From Nitrospirales bacterium (GTDB lineage Bacteria; Nitrospirota; Nitrospiria; Nitrospirales; UBA8639): DNA of 64,000 nt. Both the position numbers and the translations under genes were made by a program. Below the pieces are notes generated by a model. The model was not told the DNA's origin. It made no database searches and was given only the letters and a program-made list of their open reading frames with translations. Position 1 is the first letter of the stretch; each line of letters starts with the position of its first letter. This document shows positions 35,989 to 56,256 of this stretch, one piece after another. The stretch is from positions 1 through 64,000 of the forward strand of contig JAJDBQ010000195.1 of assembly GCA_029261255.1 (NCBI GenBank), given 5' to 3'.

Positions 35989-37584
35989 TCATTCCTCTTT
36001 TTCTATTTTAAAAAGGATCAGATTTTCTAAAAAATCTAAGAGGTGCTGTTGACGCAAGAGAGGGAGTTCTTGGAATCTTTGCCGAGAGTTCTGTCCTTCT
36101 CCTCCATGAGCAAGAATTGCTTCTGTGAGGGTGGAGGCTCTGCCATCATGGAGATAGGGTCCGGTCGAGCCGACTCCCCAGAGTTCTTTGGTCAGCCATA
36201 TGGAGTGACCAGTACCAATTTCATCAATAGGTTCTGCGACGTCAGAACCTAAGTCATGGCGTCTGAGATCGCTATAAAGTCTGATGATTGCTCTCCCTCG
36301 ATGATCTCGTTGGAACGAACCGAGTCGAAATTCACGTCCAGCTTTATCTTGTACGATATTGTCTGGCTGATCCCGGGTCAGATCAAACGAGACTGGAAGA
36401 GTTGGATCAACCAACTCATCAATAGGATGAAGTCCACTGGGAAATATCTCATCTCTGTAGTGAGCATTGACGCTGGGTTCACGAAATATAGGATCCTTAA
36501 TCCTGAGCGAGGGCGTGTGACAGGATGTACATCCAACTTGATGAAAGATACGCTTTCCGCGTCGAATCGATTGTCGATCAAAATCAGACAGAGGTTCAAG
36601 GATTCCCAATCGTGCTAACTCGATTTTTGTGGTTGGACGAGGTTGAGCCGCAAGATAGATGGCAAGAGCCGTCTGATCTCCGATCGTCATTTCATTGGTG
36701 ATTCCGTCAAAATCTCCATCTTCATCTCTTCCGACCAATTCGACGGCTTGCATGCCAAGTTCGTTGTGTGATGCTCCGCGATTGAAATCTCGTAGTGTCG
36801 TATTATGGCCCTTCCACTGGAAGGGTTTAAGGACGAGATCTTCATCGACGCCCTTGATCTGTTCTGTGTGAACTTCGTATCGGCATGGGATTGCGTGCGT
36901 CGGTCGTATGGTAAGAGAACCAAATTCAACTCCCTTTGCCTTCAGGGTTCGTATTTGTGTTTTTTGTGTGCGACAAGCTTGTTGGATCGTGCGGTCACGA
37001 ATGGCGTGAAGTCGTTCAGTCATTTCTTCAGCTAGACGTTGAATGGCTCCAGCACCAAATAGGTGAGGAGTATTCCGTTGAATCATAGTGGCCATAGTAC
37101 CGCTATGAAGTGGGTCTCGATGCACATTTGAATTGATCTGTCCTGCTCCGTCATCAAAGGGTAGATTGTGGCAGGCATTGCAAGATTGAGCATTTGGGCC
37201 GGTTTCCCGTTTTGGTACGTGGTCAGCCCATTCTCCGTAGTTTGAGAGATCTGCCCGCGGTATCCGAGTAAATCGTTGATGCTCTCCGACATTCGCTCCT
37301 ACGCCATCAAGGGTATTGAACGTTGTTTCGAAGAGTTCATCCCCGAGTTCAAAGGCCAGTTCAAAAGCTTGATGATGTTGGCCCGAGAGGATGAGTTCAT
37401 AAAACTCTTGTTGATGAGCATGCTCTGCGTTCGCTTGATCAAGTTGGTTGTAACTGGTGCCATCTGTCTCAGCGCCGAATACCAAGAGGGTTGGTATTGA
37501 AAGAAATAAGATGAAGATTGCAAGTTGTATCAGGAGCGAACTCACTCGTATGTGGCTACCTTGCTTATCGTGTTTTGAAATCAT
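35989..37584 (-). CDS. Di-haem c-type oxidoreductase (DHOR / 'thiol oxidoreductase' family)
   Basis: The 531-residue exported protein has an N-terminal hydrophobic signal (about residues 15-37), then two haem c motifs, CNACH near residue 135 and CTSCH near 351. The region GPYLHDGRASTLTEAILAHGGEG is the typical C-terminal MauG/DHOR signature. The family uses two c haems for periplasmic oxidation chemistry or electron transfer. AGAGGAAC precedes the ATG. It lies 110 bases downstream of the HmuS/CobN-like gene and could supply electrons to it; that is inference. Confidence 0.85.
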   Translation of the reverse strand: MISKHDKQGSHIRVSSLLIQLAIFILFLSIPTLLVFGAETDGTSYNQLDQANAEHAHQQEFYELILSGQHHQAFELAFELGDELFETTFNTLDGVGANVGEHQRFTRIPRADLSNYGEWADHVPKRETGPNAQSCNACHNLPFDDGAGQINSNVHRDPLHSGTMATMIQRNTPHLFGAGAIQRLAEEMTERLHAIRDRTIQQACRTQKTQIRTLKAKGVEFGSLTIRPTHAIPCRYEVHTEQIKGVDEDLVLKPFQWKGHNTTLRDFNRGASHNELGMQAVELVGRDEDGDFDGITNEMTIGDQTALAIYLAAQPRPTTKIELARLGILEPLSDFDRQSIRRGKRIFHQVGCTSCHTPSLRIKDPIFREPSVNAHYRDEIFPSGLHPIDELVDPTLPVSFDLTRDQPDNIVQDKAGREFRLGSFQRDHRGRAIIRLYSDLRRHDLGSDVAEPIDEIGTGHSIWLTKELWGVGSTGPYLHDGRASTLTEAILAHGGEGQNSRQRFQELPLLRQQHLLDFLENLILFKIEKEE

Positions 37585-37694: not shown

Positions 37695-40600
37695 CTACGT
37701 TGCACTCAGTCTTTCCGGAGACGACCACGTTTTGGTGATGGCTGAAAACTGCTGAGATTCTGAGCGTATAGTAAGTTGATACATGACCCCCGCACCAAAG
37801 AACACAATAATGAGTAATGCCAAGTACCAGGGATCATCGTTTTCTGTGCTCTCCATGGGTTGGACTTTTTCTAACATTTGCCCTTCAACTGTTTGCGTGG
37901 GCTGAGCCACTTCTGTCGGCGATGCCGGCACTTGACTGGATGATGGCTGTGCCACGGCAGGCAGTGCGCCCAGCCCATAGCCTTGAGACAGATTTTCCAG
38001 ATATTCCTTGAATTGTTCATTCGCCGTATAGACATCATGGGCTTTGGCGAGTTCGAGGTAGGTTTGGGCGAGTTCTTCCTTCACAAGATCTGAGGCTTCC
38101 CAATAGCCTTTACGAATGGCTTCAAGCATCCGTTCAGTCATTTGTGCGAGCGCTTCGGGATTATGGGTTTCAAACCATTCCTTCATTTGTAAATCATAGA
38201 TGTCCTTCACATAGACATCGTGAAAGCCTTGCCATTGATCATCGCGGATGCTGTCAGGGTCGACCACTTGCCAACCCCAAAAATTGTTAACGGTATCAAG
38301 GACGGCCAATGTGCCGGAATACCCCTCTTCTTGCATTTCCTCTATCCATTTTGGATGAAAATAACGAGCACGAAGTTCGGTTGCGATAAATTCACTCAGT
38401 GGCGCGACGTTAAGGTTATCCTTATCGCGTAAATCGGAGATGAACATCTCAGGGCTTTCACCATCAAGGTTTCGGACGGCAAGAGAAATTCCTCCGAAAT
38501 ATTGAAACGGATCGTCGCTGGTCATCATGCCATAGAGGTTAGAGGACCGAGAAAACAAGACGGCATCTGTCCCCGATAAGTTCATTGCATAGAGGTCAAT
38601 GTTCGAAAGTTTTTTGCCCCATGTTTTCTCGTCGGATCCGTAAAAATACCCCATACGATCTAAATACATCTTGGCGAGTTTGTCGTCTGTTTCCCAGGTG
38701 TCTGAGGCGAGACTTGCCACCTCAAGTCCGGTGCCATACTCACCGTTCTCATTCGAAAAAAAACGGATCGTCGAGAGTGCGCTGGCTTCATCCTGCGCCA
38801 GCCCTTCATTCAAAAGGTCTTGTTCGATGGATTGCGCATGTTGTGCGATGAAATTATCTTTGCCTTTGAGTTCGACGATTTTTTGAACAGCCTTCGAGAT
38901 GAGCATCATCACGTTTGGAAAGGCATCGCGATAGAGACCAGTTGGTGAAGCAATAACATCAACTCGTGGGCGCTGTAGTTCGCTGTAGGGAATAATTTCA
39001 GTGTCGGTGACTTTGCCTTGTTCATTCCAAACCGGTTTGACACCCATGGCATGGAGGATCTGGGCTTCTAACACTCCGAAATGTCGCATCGTTTCGATTG
39101 ACCAGAGATTAAATGTAACCTTTTCTGGATATCGTCCATGTTTGGCATAGAAGGTCGCGAGCATGTTCTCCATAAGTTCTTTGCCAGCCTCGTACGCGGC
39201 TTTGGTCGGAATCTTTGATGGATCGAATCCGTACAAGTTGCGTCCCGTTGGAAGCGAGTCAGGATTATTAATGGGGCCACCACCGGCTGAGGTTGAAATA
39301 TATTTACCTTCAAGCGCGCCAATGATCGCCTGAATTTCCTGCTGATTTTTCAAATTGGCAAAGTGCGTGCGACCATCGATAAGCAGCGTCCGAAGTTCTG
39401 AATGTGCTTTCTGAGGGATGGCTTGTTGCCTCACAATAAAGGTGTCTACGAGTCGATACTCAATGGTCCTCATCAATGGATCGTCTTGCTCTGTTGTTAG
39501 TCGGGTATTGGGTGAAGTGGTTGATGTAAGCTCTGATGGTGTTTGAAGCAAGTCTGCACCATGGTTTTGTGCGAGTTCCACAAAGCGAGATCCCAGCATT
39601 TGTAGCATGGTGGATGTGAGGTGATGTGGTGCAAATGACTGCCCAAACGAATGAAGGCCCAGGGGCTGATTTTGCTGAGCCATGGCATGGAGATGGTCAT
39701 GTAACTCAGGTAAAAACTCGACAAATTTATTCGAAATATCATCTTCGTTCCATCCAAGGTCTTTGTGGATGTTCTTCTGAATCGTGAGGTCAATAATCTG
39801 TTCTTTCGTGTGAGCTTTGACACTGCCTTGTTCTATCTCGTCATGTTGGTTCATGAGTTCATCGATCTCAGCTAATTCACGATAGAGCCCCGCTTTTCTG
39901 AAGGGTGGAGTCAGATGGCTGATGACCATGGCACGTCCCCGGCGTTTGGTCTGCATGGCTTCACCAACATTATCCACGATGAAAGGATAGATAATCGGAA
40001 TGTCGCTGATTGGTAAGTAGCCGTCATCATACGCTGAGAGTCCGCGTTCTTTGCCTGGAAGCCATTCTTGTGTGCCGTGTGTCCCCAAGTGCACGATAGC
40101 ATCGGCACGGAATTGTTGATGAGTGTACAAATAGGTGGCTAAGTAATTGTGACTCACAGGAGTGTTTTGACTGTGATAAATCTCTTGTTCGCGATCCTTG
40201 TTGTTGCCTCGTGGCGGCTGAGGGAGGATTAACAAGTTCCCCAGTTGGAGGCGGGGAATAATAAACTGCTTCTGACCATCAATTTCATAGACCGTAAAAC
40301 TGTCTTGTGGTTTCCCCCAGCGTGATTCAATTTCTGTCCGAATCGTTTGAGGGAGCGTGTCGTACCAGGCGGTATAGGTTGAGAGTGGAAGAAGTCCTCC
40401 AAGGTTGTGCTCAAGCATTTGGGTATAGGGTTCATTGCGGTAGAAGGGGCGAAGCATTAACGGGATGGATTCGACAAACGTGTCTTCCGTTGCCTGGTTT
40501 ATCTGGTAGCCGGCTTTGATGAGGGCTGCTGAGATGTTTTCTAGACTCTCAGGAATATTCAGGAAGGAGGCACTGGCATTTTTTTCTCCCGGAGGATAGT

Positions 40601-41813
40601 TGTAAAACATGATAGCCACTTGTTTGTCTGGATTGGGCGTATGTTTCAATTTGGCGAGACGAAACACCTTGTTCATGAGCGCCTTCAATTGATAATCGAT
40701 CGAAACGGCCTGTTTTGTTTTTTGAGCAACCGCTGCGACGACCATGGGATCGATTGCCCCCGCGATTTCTGCATAGGTCAAAAAGAAGGGAATCGCCATG
40801 GCCGGAATGCCGGCAGTATCCTCTTCCCATTTCGTTTGATCGCCGTTGGAATAGGGGAGTGCCTGAATAATTGGCACCCCAAGCTTTTCAAATTCTGTTT
40901 TTCTGGCACTGGCCCAATGGAGGATGCGCGTATTGATGATGACATCAGCCACGGTTTCTCCGTCCAGTTGTAGGAGTGGCGTATAGTCGGGGGCCCCTCT
41001 TGGGCTGGCCACGAAATAGAAAGGAATAGCTCGTCCTCCACGTTGTTCTATATGCTGAATAAATTCATCGACAAGATGTGTTTGATTTGAGGCAATGGCT
41101 TCTTTCGTCATGGCGATGCCGACGGTCGCATTCGTCTTGCGGGCATCCGCTCCGATCCACGTCAAGTATTCATCCAATGAGGCGAACACCGTCTGCTCAT
41201 ATTTTGGGTGGTAAATGCCTACTTTTGGGAAAATAATGGGTGGATCAACTGCGCGTTGCCGACTCTGTTCAAAGAAGTTTGCTTCGAGATAGGCTAGCAT
41301 CCGACGGAAGTTTTTTGTTCCGCCATTATCGTAATACTCATACAGACGTGTGCCCTGTTCGTCAGAGACCCCTTGCCGAAGCGCTGTGGGTTTCATGAGT
41401 TTGATAGGAAGAAAGCTTTTATCTTGATGGGTTTTCACGATGTTTGAAAATTTGGCATAGGAGAGCTCGGCTTCGTGGCCGCTCACGGAATCAAAGATTA
41501 CAAATTGATATGGTGCGATAACACTAGACAAGGCGTCTCCATCTTTCAAACTTTCGAGGAGTTTGTAGTCAATGCGGATAGAAGTGTCTTGAGCCAGTTG
41601 CTGTAGTTCCATCAGCTTGGCTTCCGAGACGTGATTGGTCGCCAATATCAACAGTGAATGTTTTGTGTCACTGGATGGATAGAGCTGTGCTCCACGAACA
41701 GTGTTGTTGGTGTCAAAAACGAGGTGTAAGAGTAAAAGACTAAAGAACAGCCCGAGCCAAAATGTACGTCTTGCCACTGAAGTTGTACATGGCGTTGTCT
41801 TAAAATGTTTCAT
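37695..41813 (-). CDS. Exported HmuS/CobN-like chelatase-family protein
   Basis: The 1372-residue protein belongs to the CobN/magnesium-chelatase H family: it has IVHLGTHGTQEWLPGKERGL near residue 575, VDVIASPTGLYRDAFPNV and FGVLEAQILHAMGVKPVWN. Unlike cytoplasmic CobN it starts with a signal peptide (about residues 1-42) and ends with one membrane helix (about 1326-1346) and a short cytoplasmic tail, so the bulk should be periplasmic. No CobS or CobT gene is near. Instead an ExbB-like gene and DUF2149 lie upstream, as in hmu haem loci of Bacteroidota, where HmuS is implicated in removing metal from haem. GGAGGA precedes the ATG. Generic annotation as cobaltochelatase CobN is probably misleading. 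Confidence 0.85.
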   Translation of the reverse strand: MKHFKTTPCTTSVARRTFWLGLFFSLLLLHLVFDTNNTVRGAQLYPSSDTKHSLLILATNHVSEAKLMELQQLAQDTSIRIDYKLLESLKDGDALSSVIAPYQFVIFDSVSGHEAELSYAKFSNIVKTHQDKSFLPIKLMKPTALRQGVSDEQGTRLYEYYDNGGTKNFRRMLAYLEANFFEQSRQRAVDPPIIFPKVGIYHPKYEQTVFASLDEYLTWIGADARKTNATVGIAMTKEAIASNQTHLVDEFIQHIEQRGGRAIPFYFVASPRGAPDYTPLLQLDGETVADVIINTRILHWASARKTEFEKLGVPIIQALPYSNGDQTKWEEDTAGIPAMAIPFFLTYAEIAGAIDPMVVAAVAQKTKQAVSIDYQLKALMNKVFRLAKLKHTPNPDKQVAIMFYNYPPGEKNASASFLNIPESLENISAALIKAGYQINQATEDTFVESIPLMLRPFYRNEPYTQMLEHNLGGLLPLSTYTAWYDTLPQTIRTEIESRWGKPQDSFTVYEIDGQKQFIIPRLQLGNLLILPQPPRGNNKDREQEIYHSQNTPVSHNYLATYLYTHQQFRADAIVHLGTHGTQEWLPGKERGLSAYDDGYLPISDIPIIYPFIVDNVGEAMQTKRRGRAMVISHLTPPFRKAGLYRELAEIDELMNQHDEIEQGSVKAHTKEQIIDLTIQKNIHKDLGWNEDDISNKFVEFLPELHDHLHAMAQQNQPLGLHSFGQSFAPHHLTSTMLQMLGSRFVELAQNHGADLLQTPSELTSTTSPNTRLTTEQDDPLMRTIEYRLVDTFIVRQQAIPQKAHSELRTLLIDGRTHFANLKNQQEIQAIIGALEGKYISTSAGGGPINNPDSLPTGRNLYGFDPSKIPTKAAYEAGKELMENMLATFYAKHGRYPEKVTFNLWSIETMRHFGVLEAQILHAMGVKPVWNEQGKVTDTEIIPYSELQRPRVDVIASPTGLYRDAFPNVMMLISKAVQKIVELKGKDNFIAQHAQSIEQDLLNEGLAQDEASALSTIRFFSNENGEYGTGLEVASLASDTWETDDKLAKMYLDRMGYFYGSDEKTWGKKLSNIDLYAMNLSGTDAVLFSRSSNLYGMMTSDDPFQYFGGISLAVRNLDGESPEMFISDLRDKDNLNVAPLSEFIATELRARYFHPKWIEEMQEEGYSGTLAVLDTVNNFWGWQVVDPDSIRDDQWQGFHDVYVKDIYDLQMKEWFETHNPEALAQMTERMLEAIRKGYWEASDLVKEELAQTYLELAKAHDVYTANEQFKEYLENLSQGYGLGALPAVAQPSSSQVPASPTEVAQPTQTVEGQMLEKVQPMESTENDDPWYLALLIIVFFGAGVMYQLTIRSESQQFSAITKTWSSPERLSAT

Positions 41814-41943
41814 GATCTATATCCTCCGCATGATTCTAGAAAATATGATGACGAGTCCCGTTTGTTGGAAAAAAGTGAAACGTAAAAGTGGAGACATCCG
41901 CGTTTACCACAGAGGTCGTTACTTCTCACGTTTCATGAGTGTC

Positions 41944-42261
41944 TCATTCGCTTTCGTCATCTGGGACATAAATGAGCGAACCATCTTTTAGTCGATACGC
42001 GGTTCCGGCACGACTGCCTTCGCCCTGTCCAATGGTTCCTGTCGTTTTGTGATGTTCGATCTTTTCGCCTTTTTTGGTAATGATTTCCATGGTGTCTTTA
42101 CCTGGATCCTTGATGATGGTCATATCCTCGCTAAAAAATGGATTGAGCGGGTTCTGCGCAATGGCAATTAAGAGGGCCGCAATGATGACTAAGAAGACAT
42201 CAACCATGTTGCCGACAGAGAGAATCGGATTAGTGGATTCATCTTCTTCCAGGAGTTTCAT
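41944..42261 (-). CDS. DUF2149 protein, ExbD-like
   Basis: The 105-residue protein has one N-terminal membrane helix (about residues 18-36) and a small periplasmic domain ending in acidic residues. The helix begins VGNMVDVFLVIIAALLI, which resembles the ExbD helix of this window (VIPLVDVMLVLLVIVL), with the charged Asp in the same place. DUF2149 is usually found beside an ExbB-like protein and a CobN-like protein. Its ATG overlaps the stop of the ExbB-like gene. Confidence 0.85.
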   Translation of the reverse strand: MKLLEEDESTNPILSVGNMVDVFLVIIAALLIAIAQNPLNPFFSEDMTIIKDPGKDTMEIITKKGEKIEHHKTTGTIGQGEGSRAGTAYRLKDGSLIYVPDDESE

Positions 42262-42803
42262 GTGAGGCCTCGAGCTTTTTGAATGTGCTGAATATCAGTG
42301 AGTTCGGAGGCGAGCCACCGTTTCTGTACGGTCGCGAGGCAGAACATAATCGATGCTGCGACCAATCCAAAGATCACTGCCGCGAATGCGACGATTAGAC
42401 TTTCGCTGATTCCTTGTACGTTGCCGTCAGCTAAGGATTTAAGCGCGGGGCCCATAGGAATCATCGTCCCGACGAGTCCTAGCATCGGGGCGATACGGGT
42501 GATGATGCGAGCAGCCTCCAGTTCTTTTAACGCGAGAAGGTCTAAGGCATCAGTTGTGGTGGATGGTTGTTGTTGGAATTGATTGAAGAGACGATACCCT
42601 TTTAGAGTGATCGAATCAGAGCCACCATCCAGTAATGCACGAATGGTCTCTTGGTATTGAGGAAGATATTTTCTGCGTTGAAACCATTGCCCCGAAAAAG
42701 TCCCTAAGGCAAAAAATGCATACACAAAGAGTATTCCGAGAAGAAATAACACAGGAGTCAGGAAGAGATTAGAAACTTGATACATGACGTTTTCTATATG
42801 CAC
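42258..42803 (-). CDS. MotA/TolQ/ExbB-family proton channel protein (HmuU-like)
   Basis: The 181-residue membrane protein has three helices: about residues 15-37, then a pair from 105 to 165 around RIAPMLGLVGTMIPMGPAL and VAFAAVIFGLVAASIMFCLA. These are the ExbB/TolQ core segments. It should form a proton channel with DUF2149 and energise the HmuS/CobN-like protein. The start could be the first ATG or the Met seven residues later. It is the first gene of a coupled trio (ExbB-like, DUF2149, chelatase). Confidence 0.88.
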   Translation of the reverse strand: MHIENVMYQVSNLFLTPVLFLLGILFVYAFFALGTFSGQWFQRRKYLPQYQETIRALLDGGSDSITLKGYRLFNQFQQQPSTTTDALDLLALKELEAARIITRIAPMLGLVGTMIPMGPALKSLADGNVQGISESLIVAFAAVIFGLVAASIMFCLATVQKRWLASELTDIQHIQKARGLT

Positions 42804-43032: not shown

Positions 43033-43338
43033 TCAATGAATCAACAGGATAGGAAGGGGCGGACCACGAATGGGAAAGGTTGGCTGGTGAAATGTCTCAC
43101 AGGACGATTGAGTAGGCGCAGAAAAATGAATGAAGATCCAATTGGGCGTAACGGACGGGAGACATGTTGGTAATCCAACCGATGATTTGACTTGCCAGAA
43201 CCAAGGGCAGGAATGAGAGGAGTCCAGGGTGTCGGGTGTAATTTTGGCGTGGGCGAGTCCAAAGGGAAATGCCAACGAGCTGACAAGGATATACAATCCT
43301 AAGAGAGTGAACGTCAGAATATGAGAGGCTCGTTTCAT
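43033..43338 (-). CDS. Small exported hypothetical protein with an RGPP tail
   Basis: The 101-residue protein has a clear signal peptide (MKRASHILTFTLLGLYILVS to the AHA cleavage site at about residue 30), a short cysteine-containing middle and the ending FPIRGPPLPILLIH. Similar R-G/A-P-P endings occur in small secreted proteins of TonB and metal loci (DUF2946-like), but I cannot assign a family securely. No strong ribosome-binding site is seen. The flanking 42804-43032 and 43339-43554 hold no other gene that I can support. Confidence 0.45.
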   Translation of the reverse strand: MKRASHILTFTLLGLYILVSSLAFPFGLAHAKITPDTLDSSHSCPWFWQVKSSVGLPTCLPSVTPNWIFIHFSAPTQSSCETFHQPTFPIRGPPLPILLIH

Positions 43339-43554
43339 AGAACGTGATTCAGATCAGTGGTTTGGATACGCATTACCAATAGAAAACAACCTAAAGAAGG
43401 TTTATACAAGGACTTCTATGGTTTGGGAATGTTGAAAATCCAGAAGAAGATGTTCAGTATTTGGAATCTGACTGCATCGTTTTAGGCACAATGAACTAAG
43501 GATTCGGCTTGTTGGATCACAGAGTCTTTACGGAATGTCATATCCCTCAACGTG

Positions 43555-44005
43555 TCATATTCCCGGTTTCTCTTTAGTCAGGGTTAACGTTTCGATAGCT
43601 AAATGTTTTTGCTCGAAACGACTGCTATACGTAAATGTGACATATTCGCCATCCGGCATTCCTTGTAGGGTGGCGGTTTCGTTGGTGGATTGAAGTGTCC
43701 GCTCTTTCACGGAACCAAGCTGGTTTCGTATGGCTTGTAAGCCTGCAATCCATTGGTCTTGGGGAGTGCATGCCCTTAACCACGGTGCGCTTGTCTCCCA
43801 GCTTTTGGAATACTTTTTCTCATCAATGAGCTGTAGCCAAGGAGAAGCTGTGTTGTGGGAATTTGTGAGGTGCGTCGAATCTTGGTAGGTGAGAGAGCCT
43901 CGCCCTTTTGAAGTTGCAAGACACTCCGTGAAGCAAGAATCCTCCTAACAATATCAGGATGAGACTAAAGACATGACAGTCGTTGAATCTATAACGTGTC
44001 TTCAT
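43555..44005 (-). pseudogene. DUF4019 lipoprotein-like gene with a frameshift
   Basis: The 5' part (ATG at 44005) encodes MKTRYRFNDCHVFSLILILL followed by GGFLLHGVSC, a lipoprotein-type signal, but this frame stops at 43823. A second - strand frame, open from about 43945 to TGA at 43555, encodes the DUF4019 body: SPWLQLIDEKKYSKSWETSA, DQWIAGLQAIRNQLGSV and GMPDGEYVTFTYSSRFEQKH. The total span is 451 bases, so removing one base would restore a normal protein of about 149 residues. It is either a real frameshift mutation or a sequencing error. The 5' end overlaps the preceding gene by 17 bases. Confidence 0.7.
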
Positions 44006-44480
44006 CCTTGGCCTGTTCATGGTTGCTAGGGTTAATTTCTTGAATGACTAGTTGTCGATTCTCTGATTGGGATTCCCTCAAGACGAAATATCGTTCCATG
44101 AGTCTTAACGCCAGTGGATCGATCGAAGGGGCTTGACAGTGCTCATGGAGGATTTCGTTGACATGACTGAGACAACAGGTCCGAAACCTCCATTTGCGAA
44201 TCGGAAAAATCTCGTAATGATCAGCAGTCAAATTGGACGGAGTGAGGATCGATAGCCGTAAGATAGGATGCCACAGCTGTAAGTGGAGAAAGCCGTGTCT
44301 TGCAAAATATCCATATTTAATATCTTGTCGAGAAAAAATACGTACATGCCAGTCATTAATCCATCCAACGCGACATCGTTCTCGAGGATCATGTGGAGGA
44401 GGGGGCCATTCTGCTTGATAATTTTGAAGAAGCATTTTGATCATCAGGGGCTTTCTTTTTCTTTCTGAACGACGGCTCAT
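43989..44480 (-). CDS. Hypothetical protein in the iron operon
   Basis: I do not recognise this protein of about 163 residues. It is basic and rich in His, Arg and Trp, with CRVGWINDWHVRIFSRQDIK, GYFARHGFLHLQLWHP and a central CC pair (FRTCCLSHVNEILHEHC). No signal or membrane helix is visible. I set the start at ATG 44480; the first in-frame ATG (44501) is inside a 14-base-pair hairpin. It lies between the PepSY gene and the DUF4019 gene on the same strand. Confidence 0.5.
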   Translation of the reverse strand: MSRRSERKRKPLMIKMLLQNYQAEWPPPPHDPRERCRVGWINDWHVRIFSRQDIKYGYFARHGFLHLQLWHPILRLSILTPSNLTADHYEIFPIRKWRFRTCCLSHVNEILHEHCQAPSIDPLALRLMERYFVLRESQSENRQLVIQEINPSNHEQAKDEDTL

Positions 44481-44485
44481 GTTGG

Positions 44486-44522
44486 CCATCTCTCTCATCA
44501 TGAAACTAGATGAGAGAGATGG
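44486..44522 (-). repeat. Perfect 14-bp hairpin between PepSY and the next gene
   Basis: Bases 44486-44499 and 44509-44522 are exact reverse complements with a nine-base loop. The 3' arm on the - strand holds GAGAGAGATGG, the likely ribosome-binding region for the downstream gene. No T-run follows, so translation control or mRNA processing fits better than termination. Confidence 0.6.
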
Positions 44523-44537
44523 GATTCTTTCTAGGCA

Positions 44538-45014
44538 TCAGTCGATGAGGTTATGGTTTTTTTGTGACTGGTTTTTCTGTTGAGGTGTCTTTTTTTGTGC
44601 TGGATCTACGATCTGCTCAGATTTAGTATCTGATGCGCCAGTCTGAATCGCCTTGCCTGTTTGTTCTTCTGTGTCTTTCTGGGCATGAAGACCAATCAGT
44701 TCACCGCGCTCTCCATCCACGTGGACTTCATGAAGTGCCCCATCCGCACTGACAATTTCCACTTCCCACATGAGGGGACCATGTTCTTTCTCGAGTTCAG
44801 CTTTGAGCACAGTCCCAGGTTGTGCTTTTGAAGCCGTTAGTATCGCCTGTTTTATTGTAATTTTGGCCTGTTGGGCCATCGACGCTTTGACTGCATGGAC
44901 ATCCTTCGCGGCCGAATCTGCAGAGGCAATGCCTAAGGCAATAATCAACGTTCCAAAAATTCCTATGAGGGAAATAACTAAATGTTGGCACTGACGATTC
45001 AATACGTGGTGCAT
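44538..45014 (-). CDS. PepSY-domain exported protein
   Basis: From ATG at 45014 (AAGGGG upstream) the 158-residue protein has a signal segment (LVISLIGIFGTLIIALGIAS) and a PepSY domain: KITIKQAILTASKAQPGTVL, then MWEVEIVSADGALHEVHVDG and GERGELIG. The C-terminus is Gln- and Lys-rich. PepSY proteins are periplasmic and occur often in iron loci. An upstream in-frame start at 45095 has no ribosome-binding site and is unlikely. Confidence 0.8.
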   Translation of the reverse strand: MHHVLNRQCQHLVISLIGIFGTLIIALGIASADSAAKDVHAVKASMAQQAKITIKQAILTASKAQPGTVLKAELEKEHGPLMWEVEIVSADGALHEVHVDGERGELIGLHAQKDTEEQTGKAIQTGASDTKSEQIVDPAQKKTPQQKNQSQKNHNLID

Positions 45015-45159
45015 GGTGAAACCCCTTGTGGTGAAAAATGAGTAATAGGGTGCGGCGAAACATGGTGCGGATGGATACATTAAAATTCCATACATCGTAG
45101 GTTAGAGTTCGGTGTGGTAAATACCTTGATCAAATGGGGAGTGATCTCCTGGGCGCTGT

Positions 45160-45531
45160 CTATTTCACTTCAATCTCAATGTGATCCCAATCAACGATCA
45201 GCTCTGGTTCATACGTTGACACTTTCACTCGAATTTCATGCTTCCCAGGTGGCACATCGTTGAAGGCATGTTTGATATGACGTTGATAGAGACCATCAAG
45301 AAAGATATCAACAGAATCTTCTGATAACCCCGATTTCAATTGATAGATGAGATCAAACGTTGGTGCGACGGTCTCTCCATCTTTGGGTGCAATAATCGTA
45401 ATCAGAGGACTTCGTAATTCAGCCAAGGCAGACGGTAACTTTGGAAATATGGCCAAGAGAATAAAGATGATCAGCAGAATATGAACAAGAAAGAAGGTTG
45501 TGTCTGCATTCATATCGAGATGCTTTCTCAT
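45160..45531 (-). CDS. Membrane-anchored hypothetical protein, first gene after the Fur box
   Basis: From ATG at 45531 (AAGGATTAC upstream) the protein has one membrane helix (FFLVHILLIIFILLAIFPKL) and an Ig-like beta domain: PLITIIAPKDGETVAPTFDL, GLSEDSVDIFLDGLYQRHIK, and VPPGKHEIRVKV. The pattern resembles small periplasmic Ig-like or DUF4399-type domains, but no function can be given. An ATG at 45558 would add nine residues. It starts about 85 bases downstream of a strong Fur box. Confidence 0.65.
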   Translation of the reverse strand: MRKHLDMNADTTFFLVHILLIIFILLAIFPKLPSALAELRSPLITIIAPKDGETVAPTFDLIYQLKSGLSEDSVDIFLDGLYQRHIKHAFNDVPPGKHEIRVKVSTYEPELIVDWDHIEIEVK

Positions 45532-45614
45532 GTAATCCTTGGAAGCGAGAAGTCTCATTTGAAGTTATTGCTCGCGATGTGTCTGAGTATCCTTGCAATT
45601 CCATATATGAAAAA

Positions 45615-45633
45615 GATTATGACAATCATTATC
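45615..45633 (-). promoter_or_regulatory. Fur box (17 of 19 consensus positions)
   Basis: GATTATGACAATCATTATC matches the Fur consensus GATAATGATAATCATTATC except at positions 4 and 9. It lies between the stop of the gene at 45732 and the start of the gene at 45531, so it probably represses the - strand operon that leads to the ExbB-like, DUF2149 and HmuS/CobN-like genes. Confidence 0.8.
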
Positions 45634-45731: not shown

Positions 45732-48700
45732 TTACGATGCTTTAGGATTACCCGTAGCATTCATCCATGTGATGACCTCTACCAAGTTACTTTGCGCATC
45801 TTTGTGGTTAGGTACGAGACGGAGAACCACTTGGTAATGAGTTGCGGCTTGTCGATAGTCACCGAGCATCGCGAAACTATTGGCTAGGTTGAAGTGGCCA
45901 TCTGAAGATCGGGGATCTATTTGAATTACCTGCTGAAATAGACTGGCCGACTTTGAGTAGTTTCCCATTCGGTATTGGGTCAGCCCGAGATTAAAAACGA
46001 CCCTGTCACGTTCAGGCCAATCGGGGAATTTTTCTAACACTTGCGTGTACCAATTTGAGGCTTCTCGATCATGCGCTTGTTGTGAATACAAGAGCCCAAG
46101 GTCAAAGAACACATTTGGGTTGGTCGTGCTGACCAACAGCGATTTATTGAGCCAACGCTCGGCTTCTTTGAGGTTGCCGTCCAGCAGGAAGGCTCGACCT
46201 CTCGATGCCCAAAGAGGCTCCAGGAACGTTTGAATTTGATAGTTGGTGCGGTTGTGTTGCCAGGCTTGCGTATAAAACGCTTCAGCATGTTCATCGTGTC
46301 CTCGGGTGCGTGCAACAATACCTTGGAGGAGTAGGTTTGCGGCTTGAGACACATGAGAGAGTCGAACCTGCTGCTCTTCAGATGATACAGATTGTTCTTG
46401 AATGACATCGGAAATCGGGCGAAGCATTGATCGTAGGGCGTCAAGGGTTGTGGCAGCCAGGGCTGTAGTATTGAGTGTGGTGAACGACAAGGGTGCTGAA
46501 TATTCGATCAAACGATTGTCATCAGTATTCAGAGGGGCGTCAGATATCCAATCCTCAAGAGGAGTCCCGTGCGTGATAAAGCGACCTAAGAAGTCATAGG
46601 AATCCGTGCCTAAGCTGGCGATGCCACCGAGGACATCGCTTTCCTCAAATCGATGTGAGTAATTCCAGAAGTCTACAGTAAGTGGCTCGAGACCGCCTAA
46701 GATGAGTAAATAGCCGCCATGCAACCAAAGAGATGTATGAGGAAACACCGTTTGAAATGTATGGATAAGGACACGAAGATCCTCAATTCCGAGTTGATTA
46801 ATCGTAATCCATTGTCCAATCATGCCTCCGATCGCTAAGCGTTCCCGGCATTGCTGATAATGTTCAACTGTATATAAGCTGCCAACGCCACTTTGATACG
46901 GGAAAAAGAGTTCTTGAACAATCAGATCAAAGCGTTGGCGCGAAAGTTTCATAAAGTTTCGTCCGTCTTGTTGCACGACGCGGGTTTTCGGATTTGAGAG
47001 AATTCCGTGATTTTCTTGATCGAACAATGCAGCGGCTTCAATAATCCCGTCTGAAATTTCCACGATCGTGAGTTGTTCAACTTCAGATCGTAGATTTGAT
47101 GCGGCGGCGATTCCTGTTCCCAACCCAATGGTTAAGACTCTTCTTGGATATGGGTGTAGGAGCAAAGGAAGGTAGCCTTGGAGACGTTGGACACGAATGT
47201 CTTCCTCGCCACTTCCCCCCTCTTGCCGGAGACGGCTAGTGAGCAGCGTGCGCTCACCTGTTTCACGATTCGTAAACACTTCGACCACACCTGAAGCCTC
47301 TTCTCGTTGGAAAAGCACTTCTTGAGATGCACCGGCAGCTCGCTGGCGAAATGTGAGATCGCCATTTATTCCTATCCATAGCAGACTTCCAAGAAGAACA
47401 ACCCAGATCCCCATCGTTGCCATTGAGCGCGCTTGTGATTGTCCAGATGATTGTGTCTTGGCTGACAACGAGAATGGCATAGATGAGAAAATCATCCAGA
47501 GAACCACCAAGCCCAGCCCAGACAACATGATGAGGCTGACTGTTAGTCCGACCCATGGAATGAGGATGAACGACGTGATGAGGACTCCAACAACGGATCC
47601 ACCATTATGCCAGGCATAGAGTCGAGCGAGAGGAGAGACAGGGGCTGCGGTAGATTGTCCGGAGCTTGCTGACAAGGATTGGACGGATGCTGAGGGATTG
47701 GCGAGCAATGTTAATTCGCACAGACAGCAGAATGACAGTCCATATCCAATGGCCGGGACGCCCAGCACACTGAACGTCAGTGTCCCACTAGCCAGAAAAA
47801 AACGAAGAGATGAGGATCCTATCCATGCTTGCATCCAGTTGGACTGATGAAGCAATTGATCAAACGAAGCGGCGATATTTCCAGCGAATGCGATCAGGGT
47901 CATTTGGGATCCAACGGCACTCAAAAATCCAAAAGTGAGTAATACGACTGGAGAACAATAACGACGTGCGCAGAGATAGACGAGCGACCCTAATGCCATG
48001 GCTAATAATACCACCGCAAACAGAAGGCCTTCCGAGTAGGCAGTGACATTGATCACGAGCCAGATAAATTGAGCGCCAACAATTTCCAAACCTAGGATAA
48101 GGAATCCAATCACGCTGCCTATGGCCAATATCATGCGCACAGGATAGTCGGTGGCGACGCGAGAGTTCTCGGGTTTCCGTGATGGTGTTCTTTTCTGGGT
48201 GGTCTGAGATCGTGGGTGAGTTGGTGGCAAGAATTCATCATGTGCATAACGGATTCCCATCAGATATGCCACACTCGCCATCACAAGGTTCATGGTTCCC
48301 AAGAACAAGGAGGTTGCAAACAGACCCCAGGTAGGGATTATGAGAAGAGAAGCTAGAGCACCAGCTGCCGAGGCGAGCACTCCGACGTAATACACGCGAC
48401 CTGGCCGTTGTTCAGAATGTTTGGAGGCCAGTGCGGTCGATAAACCAGCTAGCAGGGGAAATCCTGTTCCCAAGAGCGAGGTGATCGGAAGAAGCAGGAG
48501 GGCGGTGAAGATGCTTCGAATCAGCGTATGGTGAATGCCATCAGTTTCTGGAGCGATGGAGATATAGACTGAGTCGATAAAGTGGAGAAAAAAAGGAAAC
48601 GCGATGCCCAGAATACCTATCCCTGCTTGTATTAGGGCGAAACCATTGAGCGAAGATTTGATGTTGTGAAGAAAGAACGACGTTCCGCGTTTCATGACAT

Positions 48701-48956
48701 AGGCTAGGGCAAAGCTGCCAATGCCCAGCCCGGCCATGAAGGTTGAAAGAACAACGGAAAATGCAGGGGCGGTCATGCCAAGTGTGGCGGTCAAGTATTT
48801 GATCCACACCACTTCATAGGTAAGACCGATAAAGGAATGCAGGGCATAACAAATTAGGAGGAAAATAGTCGAGTGAGATGACGAGGCCAGCGGAAGCTGG
48901 CCTCGTATCGAAGGAGAGTTAGGCTGTCCTGATTGGTCCGTAGAGAATGCGCGCAC
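45732..48956 (-). CDS. Fused membrane transporter-like / spermidine-synthase-like / TPR protein
   Basis: The 1074-residue protein has about 12 or more membrane helices in residues 30-570, beginning SFIGLTYEVVWIKYLTATLG, a pattern of spermidine-synthase-associated membrane proteins. A Rossmann methyltransferase/spermidine-synthase-like domain follows near residue 605 (VLTIGLGTGIAAASNLRSEV, VQQDGRNFMKLSRQRFDLIV). The C-terminal 200 residues are TPR repeats (NPNVFFDLGLLYSQQAHDRE, DGHFNLANSFAMLGDYRQAA). The function is unknown, since canonical decarboxy-SAM residues cannot be judged by eye. The GTG start is five bases after the TonB receptor stop, so it is in that operon. Confidence 0.75.
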   Translation of the reverse strand: MRAFSTDQSGQPNSPSIRGQLPLASSSHSTIFLLICYALHSFIGLTYEVVWIKYLTATLGMTAPAFSVVLSTFMAGLGIGSFALAYVMKRGTSFFLHNIKSSLNGFALIQAGIGILGIAFPFFLHFIDSVYISIAPETDGIHHTLIRSIFTALLLLPITSLLGTGFPLLAGLSTALASKHSEQRPGRVYYVGVLASAAGALASLLIIPTWGLFATSLFLGTMNLVMASVAYLMGIRYAHDEFLPPTHPRSQTTQKRTPSRKPENSRVATDYPVRMILAIGSVIGFLILGLEIVGAQFIWLVINVTAYSEGLLFAVVLLAMALGSLVYLCARRYCSPVVLLTFGFLSAVGSQMTLIAFAGNIAASFDQLLHQSNWMQAWIGSSSLRFFLASGTLTFSVLGVPAIGYGLSFCCLCELTLLANPSASVQSLSASSGQSTAAPVSPLARLYAWHNGGSVVGVLITSFILIPWVGLTVSLIMLSGLGLVVLWMIFSSMPFSLSAKTQSSGQSQARSMATMGIWVVLLGSLLWIGINGDLTFRQRAAGASQEVLFQREEASGVVEVFTNRETGERTLLTSRLRQEGGSGEEDIRVQRLQGYLPLLLHPYPRRVLTIGLGTGIAAASNLRSEVEQLTIVEISDGIIEAAALFDQENHGILSNPKTRVVQQDGRNFMKLSRQRFDLIVQELFFPYQSGVGSLYTVEHYQQCRERLAIGGMIGQWITINQLGIEDLRVLIHTFQTVFPHTSLWLHGGYLLILGGLEPLTVDFWNYSHRFEESDVLGGIASLGTDSYDFLGRFITHGTPLEDWISDAPLNTDDNRLIEYSAPLSFTTLNTTALAATTLDALRSMLRPISDVIQEQSVSSEEQQVRLSHVSQAANLLLQGIVARTRGHDEHAEAFYTQAWQHNRTNYQIQTFLEPLWASRGRAFLLDGNLKEAERWLNKSLLVSTTNPNVFFDLGLLYSQQAHDREASNWYTQVLEKFPDWPERDRVVFNLGLTQYRMGNYSKSASLFQQVIQIDPRSSDGHFNLANSFAMLGDYRQAATHYQVVLRLVPNHKDAQSNLVEVITWMNATGNPKAS
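48881..48906 (-). repeat. Perfect 11-bp hairpin at the start of the fused transporter gene
   Basis: ACGAGGCCAGC (48881-48891) and GCTGGCCTCGT (48896-48906) form a stem with a four-base loop. It lies 60 bases after the receptor stop and inside codons 17-25 of the next reading frame. There is no T-run on either side. It could be an attenuator or mRNA stabiliser. Confidence 0.5.
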
Positions 48957-48961: not shown

Positions 48962-51046
48962 TTAAGGGAGGGCGACAGTGTAAGCCAGCGAAACCTTTGG
49001 ATTGATGCCGGCTTCTGGAAGATTCGATAAATGGCGTCGATATTTGAGATCAGTAAGGTTGTCAATGCCTGCATTGAGACGAAGGCCATGTAACCAAGGA
49101 ATCCCGAGATTTCCGAAAAATGATCGTGGCGGTTCCATCGCCAGATACATATCGAAAAGAGCATAGCCACCTGTCTTTTCTGTGCCTCCACCATCGGGCA
49201 CTCGATTTTGATCGCCGGTTATTTGGGTGCGTCCGCCGACAGTCAGTCCCCAGGAGGGATGGTAGTAGTCGATGCCCAGAAGACCACGTATGGCAGGGAT
49301 TTGGGTTAGCGGCTCTTTTTCTTTCAGATCCTTCCCCCGTGTATACGTAAAGTTTCCACGGACGGTGATATTGTCGGTGGGTAGCCATGTGACTTCGCTT
49401 TCAAATCCTTGTAGAAGTGCTCTGGTGACGTTCACTGGCATGAACTCAAGTTGAAATGTCATGAAATTAAAGTTGACATCTTGATCAATGAAATCGCGCA
49501 CCTTGTTGCGGAAATACGCGCCTTTCCAGACCAGTTGATCATTGTCGGATAAGACCCGAGGCAGCACAACGCGAACCCCGGCATCGATATTTCGGCTTTT
49601 TTCTGGTTTCAGGTCAGGGTTTGGGAGAAAGACTGATCCGGGAAAATGAGTGCCAGATACAAAGAGATCGTCAAAGCCTGGCTGCCGGAAGCCATGAGCA
49701 TAGTTGGCCGTCAGATAGAGAAAGTCTGTGGCTTTGACGACTGTTCCGATCTTGGGGTTGACTCGATTTGCAGTCCTTTTTGATTGACCTGGTGTTGTCT
49801 TTTCCCACCGATCCCATCGCAGCCCTGGGATCAGCACAATGCGATCATCAAACAGCGTGATTTCGTCTTGAATATAGAGTCCATAGACATCGGAGTCGGC
49901 TTTGGGGAAAAACAGTCGGGCGCCAACTGATCGGTTTCCACGGCTTTCTTGATTATTCGTATAAAATTCCGTGCCTATGGTAAGAATGTGGTGGTGGGTT
50001 TTAGGATCACCGAAGTTCATGGAATTGCGAAGGTCAAAACCAGTGGTATCAAAATTAATATCATCTCTCGTGCTGTTTGATAACTGCCGTTCTGTGATAT
50101 CGAGTGTATTGTGATAGACAAACCCGTTCAAGTTAAGATAGGGGTTATCGGGATTATTGTGGGTGTACCCAAGTCGATAGTTAAACTGGCGATTTTTTCG
50201 ATCAGACAGGCTTGCGGCAGATGTCGGGTTCGTATTCGAGTTAAACGGAACTCCAGCCGCTTGACGGGTGACGTGAACAGAAAATTCCGCTTCGTCGTGG
50301 GCTGTGGGTTTCCACACGATTTTCCCCAGCCCAGCTGAATTATCTTGTCCAGAGTTGGGTAAGTCGCCAAACCCATCTCCAATGCGAATGTCATCTGCGC
50401 CTCGAAGTAGGCCGTAGGCCATGACTTCGAAATGCTCTCCAAGGCGACCGGCTATCGCAGTACTTGTTAGGAGTTCGTCACTTGCCCCTTGATATCCAAA
50501 TTTCTGAGAAACTGCAAATTGTCCATTTGGTCCGAGATAGTCTGATGGATCTTTCGTCTCCATCGCCACGACCCCACCAATGGCTTGGCTGCCGTACAGT
50601 GCCGAGCCTGGCCCGCGTATGATTTCTACCCGTTTTAAAAGATCCACATCAATAAAGGTGCGGCCTTTATGGCCAGACTGAAAATTCAGTCGTTGTCCGT
50701 CAATTAAGGTAAGAACCCGAGCTCCGGAAAGTCCTCGAATGTTTGGATTTTCACCCATTTGCCGAGGTCCGTCACCGCTAGAAATGCCAGGTTCATAGCG
50801 AAGCACGTCATCTAAGCTCTGAGCTTGCCGTTGTTGGAAGTATTCTTGTTCGATCACACTCACTTCCCCAGGCGTCGCGATGGGGTCTCGTGCAGTTTTC
50901 GTGGCACTGATCGTCACCTGTTGGAGTTTGAATGTTGGTTTTGTCGGTGATGAAATAGTTTTTTCGTCAGCTGAAAAAGCCCCAGAGATATTCATCAGCG
51001 AAATGAGTAACAGGGGTACTAGCAATGCAGCGTATCGTTGGATCAT
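48962..51046 (-). CDS. TonB-dependent outer-membrane receptor, haem-type
   Basis: The 694-residue receptor has a signal peptide, a plug domain with DDVLRYEPGISSGDG, NIRGLSGARVLTLIDGQR and RVEIIRGPGSALYGSQAIGG, and a 22-strand barrel. Near residue 460 it has FRQPGFDDLF, then a His at about 472 (SGTHF) and NPDL near 481. This is the FRAP/YRAP-His-NPDL layout of haem receptors such as HmuR and HemR, although the box here is FRQP. I use ATG at 51046 because AAGGAG lies just upstream; the ATG at 51067 precedes that site. It probably imports haem or a related tetrapyrrole. Confidence 0.85.
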   Translation of the reverse strand: MIQRYAALLVPLLLISLMNISGAFSADEKTISSPTKPTFKLQQVTISATKTARDPIATPGEVSVIEQEYFQQRQAQSLDDVLRYEPGISSGDGPRQMGENPNIRGLSGARVLTLIDGQRLNFQSGHKGRTFIDVDLLKRVEIIRGPGSALYGSQAIGGVVAMETKDPSDYLGPNGQFAVSQKFGYQGASDELLTSTAIAGRLGEHFEVMAYGLLRGADDIRIGDGFGDLPNSGQDNSAGLGKIVWKPTAHDEAEFSVHVTRQAAGVPFNSNTNPTSAASLSDRKNRQFNYRLGYTHNNPDNPYLNLNGFVYHNTLDITERQLSNSTRDDINFDTTGFDLRNSMNFGDPKTHHHILTIGTEFYTNNQESRGNRSVGARLFFPKADSDVYGLYIQDEITLFDDRIVLIPGLRWDRWEKTTPGQSKRTANRVNPKIGTVVKATDFLYLTANYAHGFRQPGFDDLFVSGTHFPGSVFLPNPDLKPEKSRNIDAGVRVVLPRVLSDNDQLVWKGAYFRNKVRDFIDQDVNFNFMTFQLEFMPVNVTRALLQGFESEVTWLPTDNITVRGNFTYTRGKDLKEKEPLTQIPAIRGLLGIDYYHPSWGLTVGGRTQITGDQNRVPDGGGTEKTGGYALFDMYLAMEPPRSFFGNLGIPWLHGLRLNAGIDNLTDLKYRRHLSNLPEAGINPKVSLAYTVALP

Positions 51047-51170
51047 TCGTCGCTCCTTATGATGCAATATGAATGGAGAAGTCGTGATGTGTATGTATGT
51101 GGAAAGGAAAGCCGCACTCGTTTATCACCAGAAACTCTTACCGACGGTCCAACGCGTTAGATGAAAATAG

Positions 51171-54864: not shown

Positions 54865-54873
54865 TCGGGAACG

Positions 54874-56067
54874 ATGGCCACAAGAAACGTACAACATATG
54901 ACTCCACGTGCAATCAAGGGTTGGTATCTTGTTCACAAGTGGACGAGCCTGGTGTGTACGATTTTTTTGTTGTTGCTGTGTGTGACAGGATTGCCTCTAA
55001 TTTTTTATCACGAAATCGATCACCTGATCGGGAATGCTATTGAGCCACCAGAGTTGCCAGGAGTCACTGCCCGAGCCGATCTTGACGCGATCGTGGAAAC
55101 GGCCAAGGCACGGCGACCGAATGAAGTCGTGCAGCTTCTCGTGAACGATGAGGACGATCCTGTCTGGTGGGTGCGTTTTGGTGAGACGGCAGCGGCAGAA
55201 GAGGTCTCGACCTTATCCATGTTCGATGCGCGCACTGGAGCATTTTTGCATGACTATCCTGTCAACCAAGGTGTCATGCCGATCTTGTGGCGTCTGCATG
55301 TCGATATGTTCGCAGGATTGCCAGGGTCGTTGTTTTTAGGAGCGATGGGGCTCGTGTTTCTCGCCGCCATCATCTCGGGTGTGGTGCTTTATGCGCCGTT
55401 TATGCGAAAGCTGCCATTTGGCTCCATCCGTTGGGAACGGTCACCACGCACACGATGGTTAGATCTGCATAATTTACTTGGAATTGTGACGGTCATGTGG
55501 GCCTTGGTGGTTGGTGTAACGGGGTCAATCAATACTCTAGCGAATCCAATATTTCAGCAATGGCAGGCAACAGAACTGGCAGAGATGATTGCGGCGAATC
55601 AAGGTCTGTCATCGGATCCGGTACAAGGATCTGTTGCTCAAGCCATCCAAGCGGCTCAATCAGTTGACCCGGATTGGGAACTGTTCTTTTTGGCGTTTCC
55701 TGGCAATCCGTTTGCTGGATCTCATCACTATACGGCTTTCATGCGTGGGGAAACGCCATTGACCTCAAAGCTTCTCAAGCCGGTGCTGATTGATGCGCAA
55801 ACGGGGCAGGTGGCCGATTCGCGTGACCTGCCCTGGTATGTCACAGCCCTGTTGCTGTCTCAACCGTTGCATTTCGGTGATTACGGTGGCTTGCCGCTTA
55901 AAATTATTTGGGCGTTCCTCGATATCATCACCATCATCGTCCTTGGCAGTGGTCTGTATCTATGGAAGAAGAAAAGCGCTGCTTCAATTGAAGACCGGGT
56001 CTCATCAGCGATGGAACAAGAGGACGTATTCGGCTTGTCAGCTTCATCACGAGAATCAATCCTATGA
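54874..56067 (+). CDS. PepSY-associated transmembrane protein (iron-uptake type)
   Basis: The 397-residue inner-membrane protein has the N-terminal helix pattern IKGWYLVHKWTSLVCTIFLL, a periplasmic PepSY domain, helices near residues 150-172 and 197-220, and a last helix near 345-370 ending in KKK. The family (PiuB/FoxB-like) is tied to siderophore use, often as a periplasmic reductase of ferric siderophores. Conserved His residues occur in the helices (LHVDMFAG, LDLHNLLG, LHFGDYGGLP). The TGA overlaps the next small gene's ATG. Confidence 0.88.
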   Translation: MATRNVQHMTPRAIKGWYLVHKWTSLVCTIFLLLLCVTGLPLIFYHEIDHLIGNAIEPPELPGVTARADLDAIVETAKARRPNEVVQLLVNDEDDPVWWVRFGETAAAEEVSTLSMFDARTGAFLHDYPVNQGVMPILWRLHVDMFAGLPGSLFLGAMGLVFLAAIISGVVLYAPFMRKLPFGSIRWERSPRTRWLDLHNLLGIVTVMWALVVGVTGSINTLANPIFQQWQATELAEMIAANQGLSSDPVQGSVAQAIQAAQSVDPDWELFFLAFPGNPFAGSHHYTAFMRGETPLTSKLLKPVLIDAQTGQVADSRDLPWYVTALLLSQPLHFGDYGGLPLKIIWAFLDIITIIVLGSGLYLWKKKSAASIEDRVSSAMEQEDVFGLSASSRESIL

Positions 56068-56240: not shown

Positions 56241-56256
56241 TCTCCTATCAACAATC

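Follow-up and report, generated by a model that had tools for sequence, protein, structure and literature searches.

The window analyzed here is a stretch of 64,000 nucleotides from contig JAJDBQ010000195.1 of a Nitrospirales bacterium (GCA_029261255.1). It raises the question of what drives a chelatase-family protein whose gene lies beside membrane stator genes instead of AAA+ motor genes. The source is a Nitrospirota metagenome-assembled genome (MAG) of 251 contigs, 88% complete, whose nearest named relative is a Nitrospirales MAG. The three genes reported in a first-pass annotation of this DNA were all present as described: a CobN-family gene for a protein of 1372 amino acids (aa), matching Pfam CobN-Mg_chel (PF02514) with 1062 bits over residues 158–1242; a DUF2149 gene (PF09919, 106 bits, cut-off 27); and an ExbB-like gene (MotA_ExbB, PF01618, 40.6 bits, cut-off 22.9). 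Four bases (ATGA) are shared by the ExbB-like and DUF2149 genes, and GGAGG precedes the CobN-family gene. The best explanation, and on balance probably the right one, would be a demetallase driven by a stator of its own, a reading that rests on sequence comparison.

Association of the Stator Pair With Anchored CobN-Family Proteins

DUF2149 was searched in 396 Nitrospirota genomes, 399 Pseudomonadota genomes, and 72,556 plasmids, and 41 of the 44 genes found in the three collections stood beside both ExbB-like and CobN-family genes. Thirteen of the 14 Nitrospirota matches above the curated cut-off had CobN within about 3.5 kilobases (kb) on the same contig; the other lay at a contig end, with a CobN fragment on another contig of that genome. 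Among the Pseudomonadota, 18 of 19 DUF2149 loci clustered with an ExbB-like gene and a CobN bearing a C-terminal helix, and the remaining one (L167) was an ExbB/DUF2149 pair without CobN, in the same genome as L044, an anchored CobN that has no pair beside it. CobN was close in 10 of the 11 plasmid records; in the eleventh, the gene is degraded and fused to a truncated receptor gene. Since the gene order is kept in the related locus L038 and 41 of the 44 DUF2149 loci, found independently, show the association, the three-gene arrangement is far beyond chance.

In the reverse view, 61 CobN-family proteins were examined with their surroundings, 43 of them C-terminally anchored and 18 unanchored. 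ExbB-like and DUF2149 genes were close to 41 of the 43 anchored proteins, none of which had an AAA+/VWA motor of its own. None of the unanchored proteins had the pair, and 16 of them adjoined motor genes of the ChlI/ChlD or CobS/CobT type, those without a motor in the stretch examined being from Sinorhizobium and Thiodictyon. Genome G072 carries one CobN of each kind, each with its own partner (L101, L116). The only anchored CobNs without an adjacent pair were L044 and a Cupriavidus locus (L122). The latter is an exception to the rule: its pairless anchored CobN directly precedes cobW and another CobN, which is unanchored and accompanied by genes of the CobS/CobT type. The replicon that carries L122, which is not the main chromosome, was searched for DUF2149, and none turned up.

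The annotation had further claimed that stator genes stand in place of CobS/CobT, and this agrees with the lack of own motors among the anchored loci and with the absence of any cobS/cobT/chlI/chlD-like gene in 22 kb around the window trio. Co-occurrence of cobS/cobT with this paralogue, which it had named as evidence to the contrary, was not seen in 42 of the 43 anchored loci, and the motor at L122 is accounted for by the second, unanchored CobN. Genome-wide, no CobN-type ChlI/ChlD motor was detected in the 88% complete MAG, where the best TIGR02442 match reached 42 bits versus 775 bits in a Nitrospirota genome that served as positive control.

The association holds across haem (HmuY), nickel (NikR, L047; hydrogenase hyp genes, L050), and corrinoid (bzaF/cobT, L049; CbiA, L039–L041 and L174–L178) neighbourhoods. 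Matches to all three families were also present in a control genome, that of Methanosarcina acetivorans, an archaeon without an outer membrane. Homologues of HmuV have been reported from Methanomicrobia (PMC10100974).

Several further CobN-family genes were observed. The window genome encodes another anchored CobN, which has an ExbB-like/DUF2149 pair to itself and adjoins a TonB-dependent receptor (G000:C45, L037). In the relatives L039–L041, where it is present in full, this CobN lies beside CbiA; it has HLGRHS in place of HxGTHG and belongs to a separate clade that also includes the Pseudomonadota loci L174–L178. In five genomes of one Nitrospirota genus (G105, G124, G127, G211, and G236), a CobN-family gene is split into two frames of about 800 and 500 aa; at the sole split locus examined (G127, L119), ChlI/ChlD-type genes are adjacent.

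Predicted Membrane Topology, Proposed Coupling Helix, and Putative Stator Subunits

Hydrophobic helices at both ends of the CobN-like protein, identified by hydropathy, support the export and C-terminal anchoring assigned to it earlier. Together with the positive-inside rule, they predict a cytoplasmic tail and a periplasmic large domain, and basic residues follow the C-terminal helix in most anchored members. For HmuS of Porphyromonas gingivalis, an inner-membrane, periplasm-exposed location was supported in Escherichia coli (PMC13227078). A twin-arginine signal (ARRTFW) was considered for the N-terminus and was dropped because the relative L038 has a single Arg there. An AlphaFold model of residues 43–1242, with a predicted local distance difference test (pLDDT) value of 77, matched CobN 7c6o (E 9e-66) and HmuS 9d26 (E 4e-64) over the whole length, with low overall template modelling scores of about 0.45; the last domain fitted CobN 9fpc at 2.0 Å.

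The folded part is joined to the helix by a linker, often rich in Pro and Ala, which carries a short box roughly 15–35 residues before the helix. The box has the form [VILK]xGx(x)[MLI] (VxGxxM/L), with QTVEGQMLEKVQP as the window version. It was present in 20 of 25 anchored members, against a mean of 2.3 and a maximum of 8 in shuffled linkers, and in 11 of 18 further, independent anchored proteins, against a mean of 1.0 and a maximum of 6, giving 31 of 43. In size and place it resembles the TonB D-box ISVTMVT, which binds the ExbD dimer (PMC10907165) and whose TolA equivalent is IDAVMVD (PMC12215075); by analogy, the box may bind DUF2149. The window C-terminal helix, LALLIIVFFGAGVMYQLTI, lacks the His of the SHLS motif of TonB and TolA, and the CobN-like protein is therefore not a member of the TonB family, even if it is driven alike. 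The earlier proposal of this helix as the coupling element gains weight, since the helix tracks the stator and a conserved box precedes it in many members; the coupling itself we infer.

The ExbB-like protein was aligned with canonical ExbB by hhalign (94.5%), and the first pore Thr was kept in nearly all members. In DUF2149, the single membrane helix carried an acid in all 45 sequences (44 Asp and 1 Glu) within the pattern N-[LMFI]-[VILFM]-D/E, at a position like that of the proton-carrying Asp of ExbD (xPLVDVMLVLL). DUF2149 was enriched among weak ExbD-profile matches, and the two sub-cut-off DUF2149 matches in the Nitrospirota genomes, which matched the profile over most of its length, were ExbD proteins judging from their sequences. 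This suggests that DUF2149 is homologous to ExbD, to which its periplasmic part may be only weakly related. Homology over the full length is not claimed, because the hhalign comparison aligned the membrane segment alone (probability 5%). An AlphaFold model of DUF2149, built from 16 sequences, had a pLDDT of 59, too low for fold comparison.

The proposed system would resemble ExbBD-TonB and TolQR-TolA in having a proton-driven stator of the 5:2 type that moves a single-helix partner with a periplasmic box. It would differ in that the partner is an enzyme, anchored at its C-terminus and without the SHLS helix motif. One anchored CobN with a stator pair (L169:10219-14169) has a degenerate active site, without HxGTHG and with MLDHPMSAAFLGG, and is possibly non-catalytic.

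Relation to HmuS and Phylogenetic Position

To our knowledge, HmuS is the sole characterised kind of member in the anchored enzyme class. The window protein is like HmuS of the hmuYRSTUV loci of Bacteroides thetaiotaomicron and P. gingivalis (PDB 9d26) in its CobN/ChlH fold, export, C-terminal anchor, and HxGTHG motif, which in HmuS holds the essential catalytic His538 (PMC12583661). The loci are alike in their ExbB-like (HmuU) and DUF2149 (HmuV) neighbours, TonB receptor, and iron regulation; the first-pass statement that HmuS loci of Bacteroidota have the same neighbours was borne out at L051, L052, and L054. However, the window locus has neither HmuT nor HmuY, its host belongs to the Nitrospirota, and no FeoB was found there.

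The features taken to define HmuS were HFG(T/A)HG, LSLDHxxEFMGG, a Met-rich insertion, and the site-1 ligands Met79/His254 (PMC12583661). The second motif, present in L051, L052, L054, and L165, is replaced by TSDDPFQYFGG in the window protein, and the Met-rich insertion of domain IV is missing (96 aa with 3 Met versus 247 aa with 31 Met in Prevotella, L052). There is no Met at the likely Met79 position, the placement of which is unsure. His299 is aligned with HmuS His254 by phmmer and is offset from it in the multiple alignment, so that the exact alignment is uncertain.

In trees of 42 and 60 proteins, all anchored CobNs fell on one side of a single branch, with a support of 99 in the Shimodaira–Hasegawa-like approximate likelihood ratio test. 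The change of partner may therefore have happened once and been kept through great divergence. The window protein belonged to a clade of nine (with L038, L043, L044, L045, L162–L164, and L166), which was separate from the HmuS proteins of L051, L052, L054, and L165 on long branches with a support of 100. The identity of the window protein as HmuS was rejected on the basis of this separate clade, the missing Met-rich insertion, and the replacement of His1209/Glu1212 by Asp1101/Gln1104. Thus, the earlier label “CobN/HmuS-like” is apt for architecture and neighbours and fails for the HmuS sequence signatures; the phylogenetic comparison with CobN and HmuS that it called for placed the protein outside the HmuS clade. 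Judged by sequence, the window protein acts in an HmuS-like setting, yet it is not a member of HmuS.

The large subunits of the class I chelatases CobN-CobST and ChlH-ChlID are homologous to the window protein over the whole length, but those enzymes are cytoplasmic, insert metal with an AAA+/VWA motor powered by adenosine triphosphate, and have no C-terminal helix. BtuS1 and BtuS2 of Bacteroides fragilis, which are required for growth on haem iron (PMC6460266), are likewise predicted to be periplasmic, anchored, and CobN-like; they differ in that protoporphyrin IX (PPIX) is still released by the mutants, and the published work left the stator genes aside. The NCBIfam equivalog NF004644 (“cobaltochelatase CobN”) was matched above its cut-off by the anchored proteins of the window, L038, L043, and L046; automatic annotation therefore misnames them, and the database name is misleading for anchored members.

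Metal and Substrate

The Fur-box-like site of the window, 17/19 to GATAATGATAATCATTATC, scored above the maximum of 15 in 100 simulated windows, and L038 has a 16/19 site at the same position. Searches for Zur and NikR boxes in the window gave nothing convincing. HmuY genes accompany the window-clade loci L043 (79.5 bits) and L044 (38.9 bits; Pfam HmuY, cut-off 27), and L166 has a homologue. In all nine proteins of the window clade, a His stands in the neck loop, where HmuS carries its haem ligand His254. Because of the Fur box, the haemin-type receptor, and the HmuY genes beside relatives, the window version most likely serves haem iron.

Other clades have NikR (L047), hydrogenase (L050), cobamide (L049), or CbiA genes (L039–L041; L174–L178) nearby. 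The PA1922-PA1925 operon of Pseudomonas aeruginosa, which is zinc-controlled through Zur (PMC4542158, PMC9431628), was compared by description: it has the same gene set (receptor, CobN-like, “ExbD,” DUF2149), with the CobN-like protein named by the same kind of annotation, and is under zinc-starvation control instead of a Fur-type site. In view of these neighbours and of the zinc-controlled operon, the machine looks metal-independent.

Proposed Mechanism and Alternative Explanations

We propose that a periplasmic chelatase-family protein, anchored in the inner membrane, works with its own proton-driven stator, an ExbB-like ring with the ExbD-like DUF2149. This stator would take the place held by the AAA+ motors CobS/CobT and ChlI/ChlD for cytoplasmic CobN/ChlH. 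In the window, the machine would serve haem-iron acquisition under iron (Fur) control: haem would enter via the receptor, and the CobN-like protein would take it and remove the iron. Proton flow through the stator, relayed by the C-terminal helix and the box, would then reset the enzyme for repeated turnover, the reset step being loading, opening, or product release. The haem substrate, the direction of catalysis (metal taken out, not put in), the conduction of protons, the physical coupling, and the energy-using step are the parts of this scheme that we infer. HmuS truncated so as to lack both membrane helices, and acting without the stator, makes some PPIX and stops after 1–2 turnovers (PMC12583661); the early halt counts in favour of the proposal. 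As some PPIX is still made, the stator cannot be required for the bond-breaking step itself, and the use of energy is placed at loading or product release, not at iron removal.

A number of points weigh against a stator-driven demetallase. The chemistry of HmuS can run without the stator, and membrane fractions of lysed cells were active with reduced nicotinamide adenine dinucleotide. A survey with an identity threshold of 30% found many Bacteroidota that have HmuT/U/V and no detected HmuS (PMC10100974); anchored CobNs that have diverged could fall below that threshold. Many of our loci were found via DUF2149, which favours sight of the pair, and the counts are non-independent through relatedness. 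In addition, the association of stator and CobN may be one historical event, since the anchored group is one clade, and two Cupriavidus replicons carry an anchored CobN but lack DUF2149. Members of the cobalamin-locus clade lack the box, which in HmuS-type members is weak or absent, and the second pore Thr of the ExbB-like protein, present in many members, is Val in the window clade. As for haem iron, the haem-ligand Met79 and the second catalytic His of HmuS are absent from the window protein. A search for FeoB, on which Bacteroides fragilis depends, found none in the window genome or in three relatives (98–100% complete); therefore, released iron would need another route. Finally, five Nitrospirota clusters (L103, L104, and L107–L109) contain a tonB gene with no separate ExbBD nearby.

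This last observation suits the main rival, in which the ExbB-like/DUF2149 pair energises the neighbouring TonB-dependent receptor, with TonB encoded elsewhere, and the CobN-like protein works without the pair. Such a role has been published for HmuU/HmuV of B. thetaiotaomicron (PMC12583661, PMC10100974) and for PA1924 of P. aeruginosa (PMC4542158, PMC9431628), a receptor is present at most loci, and the activity of HmuS without a stator fits it as well. However, DUF2149 is rare and tracks the anchored CobN, whereas receptors are everywhere, and at L048 the trio occurs with no receptor in 21 kb. A canonical exbB/exbD/tonB set, separate from the trio, coexists with it in the window (57579-60152) and at L049, and Methanosarcina, which matches all three families, has no outer membrane to energise. 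The C-terminal helix, which goes with the pair, and the box are also left unexplained. We consider service to the receptor a serious but rather unlikely explanation. The data frame a definite question: whether the stator belongs to the chelatase or to the receptor.

Improbable, in our view, is a pair that forms part of an inner-membrane transporter importing haem or the freed metal or porphyrin, the CobN-like protein serving as a haem chaperone or feeder in the periplasm. Haem import was proposed for HmuTUV of P. gingivalis (PMC13227078), genes for DUF2162, NicO/UreH-like proteins, or HmuT are often in the cluster, and the lack of a detected FeoB in the window genome would fit. Against it, the window locus keeps the trio without any HmuT, DUF2162, or UreH-like gene, and no solute channel is known in the ExbB/TolQ/MotA class. 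Least probable is the machine as described acting in the window on another iron tetrapyrrole or metallophore complex than haem b, or inserting metal: the Asp1101/Gln1104 replacements, the absent Met79, the relatives in zinc (Zur, from the literature), nickel, and corrinoid loci, and the NCBIfam name CobN speak for it, but the haemin-type receptor, the Fur-type site, hmuY near L043, L044, and L166, and annotated neighbours that include no cobalamin genes speak against it, and for insertion no periplasmic energy source is known except the stator itself.

Returning to the stator-driven demetallase, a wider claim would be that a second energy system exists in the chelatase superfamily: periplasmic, anchored CobN-like enzymes would form a broad class in which each is powered by an ExbB/DUF2149 proton stator of its own, via the C-terminal helix and box, and takes iron, zinc, nickel, or cobalt from tetrapyrroles or metallophores in bacteria and methanogens. 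We advance this tentatively and lean slightly away from it in so general a form. HmuS is established as a haem de-chelatase, and the purified protein halts after one or two turnovers. What is new is the idea of energy coupling for the whole class, with genome-wide support; ExbB/DUF2149 driving a chelatase was stated in no paper found, the search having left subscription papers and preprints largely outside. One class would join loci that have been treated apart, namely gut-bacterial haem loci, the PA1922-1925 zinc-starvation operon, and nickel/hydrogenase and cobamide loci. If the proposal is true, these would be, as far as we know, the first ExbB-family stators driving a metal-handling enzyme instead of outer-membrane processes or motility, and such a proton-driven enzyme would widen the range of what these stators power.

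Gene Layout and Neighbouring Features

The stator and CobN genes lie in the middle of a gene run that extends from the haemin-type receptor to the di-haem oxidoreductase-like gene (Table 1). The same order of receptor, stator pair, CobN-like, and di-haem genes is found in the relative G031 (MAG OFTM51; L038/L042), where the receptor is 84% identical. For three of the four small accessory genes, L038 has blastp matches that follow the same order; where the fourth (45160) would stand, it has an open reading frame with no match. The di-haem oxidoreductase-like protein could supply electrons for haem reduction in the periplasm, a source so far missing, or act as a redox partner.

Table 1. Features of the CobN/stator locus and their positions in the window.
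Feature	Position	Strand	Basis or remark
Di-haem oxidoreductase/peroxidase-like protein	35989..37584	-	Pfam DHOR 76 bits; directly 3' of CobN-like gene; kept in L038
CobN-family gene, 1372 aa (P0001), putatively exported and C-terminally anchored	37695..41813	-	Pfam PF02514
C-terminal transmembrane helix, about residues 1331–1349	37767..37823	-	Hydropathy; predicted cytoplasmic tail after it
Juxtamembrane box VEGQML, residues 1309–1314	37872..37889	-	In otherwise variable Pro/Ala-rich linker
RSSNLYGMMTSDDPFQYFGG loop	38490..38549	-	Arg1089 as in every anchored member; Asp1101 for HmuS His1209; Gln1104 for HmuS Glu1212
HLGTHG active-site motif	40074..40091	-	Alignment; His579 = HmuS His538
His299, in loop of HmuS haem ligand His254	40917..40919	-	9/9 window-clade members
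N-terminal hydrophobic helix/signal, about residues 17–35	41709..41765	-	Hydropathy
DUF2149 gene, 105 aa, putative ExbD/TolR-like second stator subunit	41944..42261	-	Pfam PF09919
DUF2149 Asp21, membrane helix, candidate proton carrier	42199..42201	-	Acid in 45/45 sequences
ExbB/TolQ/MotA-like channel subunit gene, 181 aa	42258..42803	-	Pfam PF01618
Small accessory genes (43033, 43989, 44538 PepSY, 45160)	43033..45558	-	Between Fur-type site and stator
Fur-box-like site	45615..45633	-	17/19; upstream of gene 45160-45558, first of stator/CobN run
TonB-dependent haemin-type receptor	48962..51067	-	NCBIfam TIGR01785 445 bits, cut-off 317

Rfam and tRNA scans of the window gave no matches. Between the haemin receptor and the remainder of the run lies a gene (45732-48956) for a membrane protein of 1074 aa, spermidine-synthase-like and with tetratricopeptide repeats, whose counterpart in L038 is 61% identical. 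Beyond the receptor, a second cluster of the iron-uptake type (52339-60152) encodes an STN-type TonB receptor, a PepSY-type ferric-reductase-like membrane protein, and the canonical ExbB, ExbD, and TonB.

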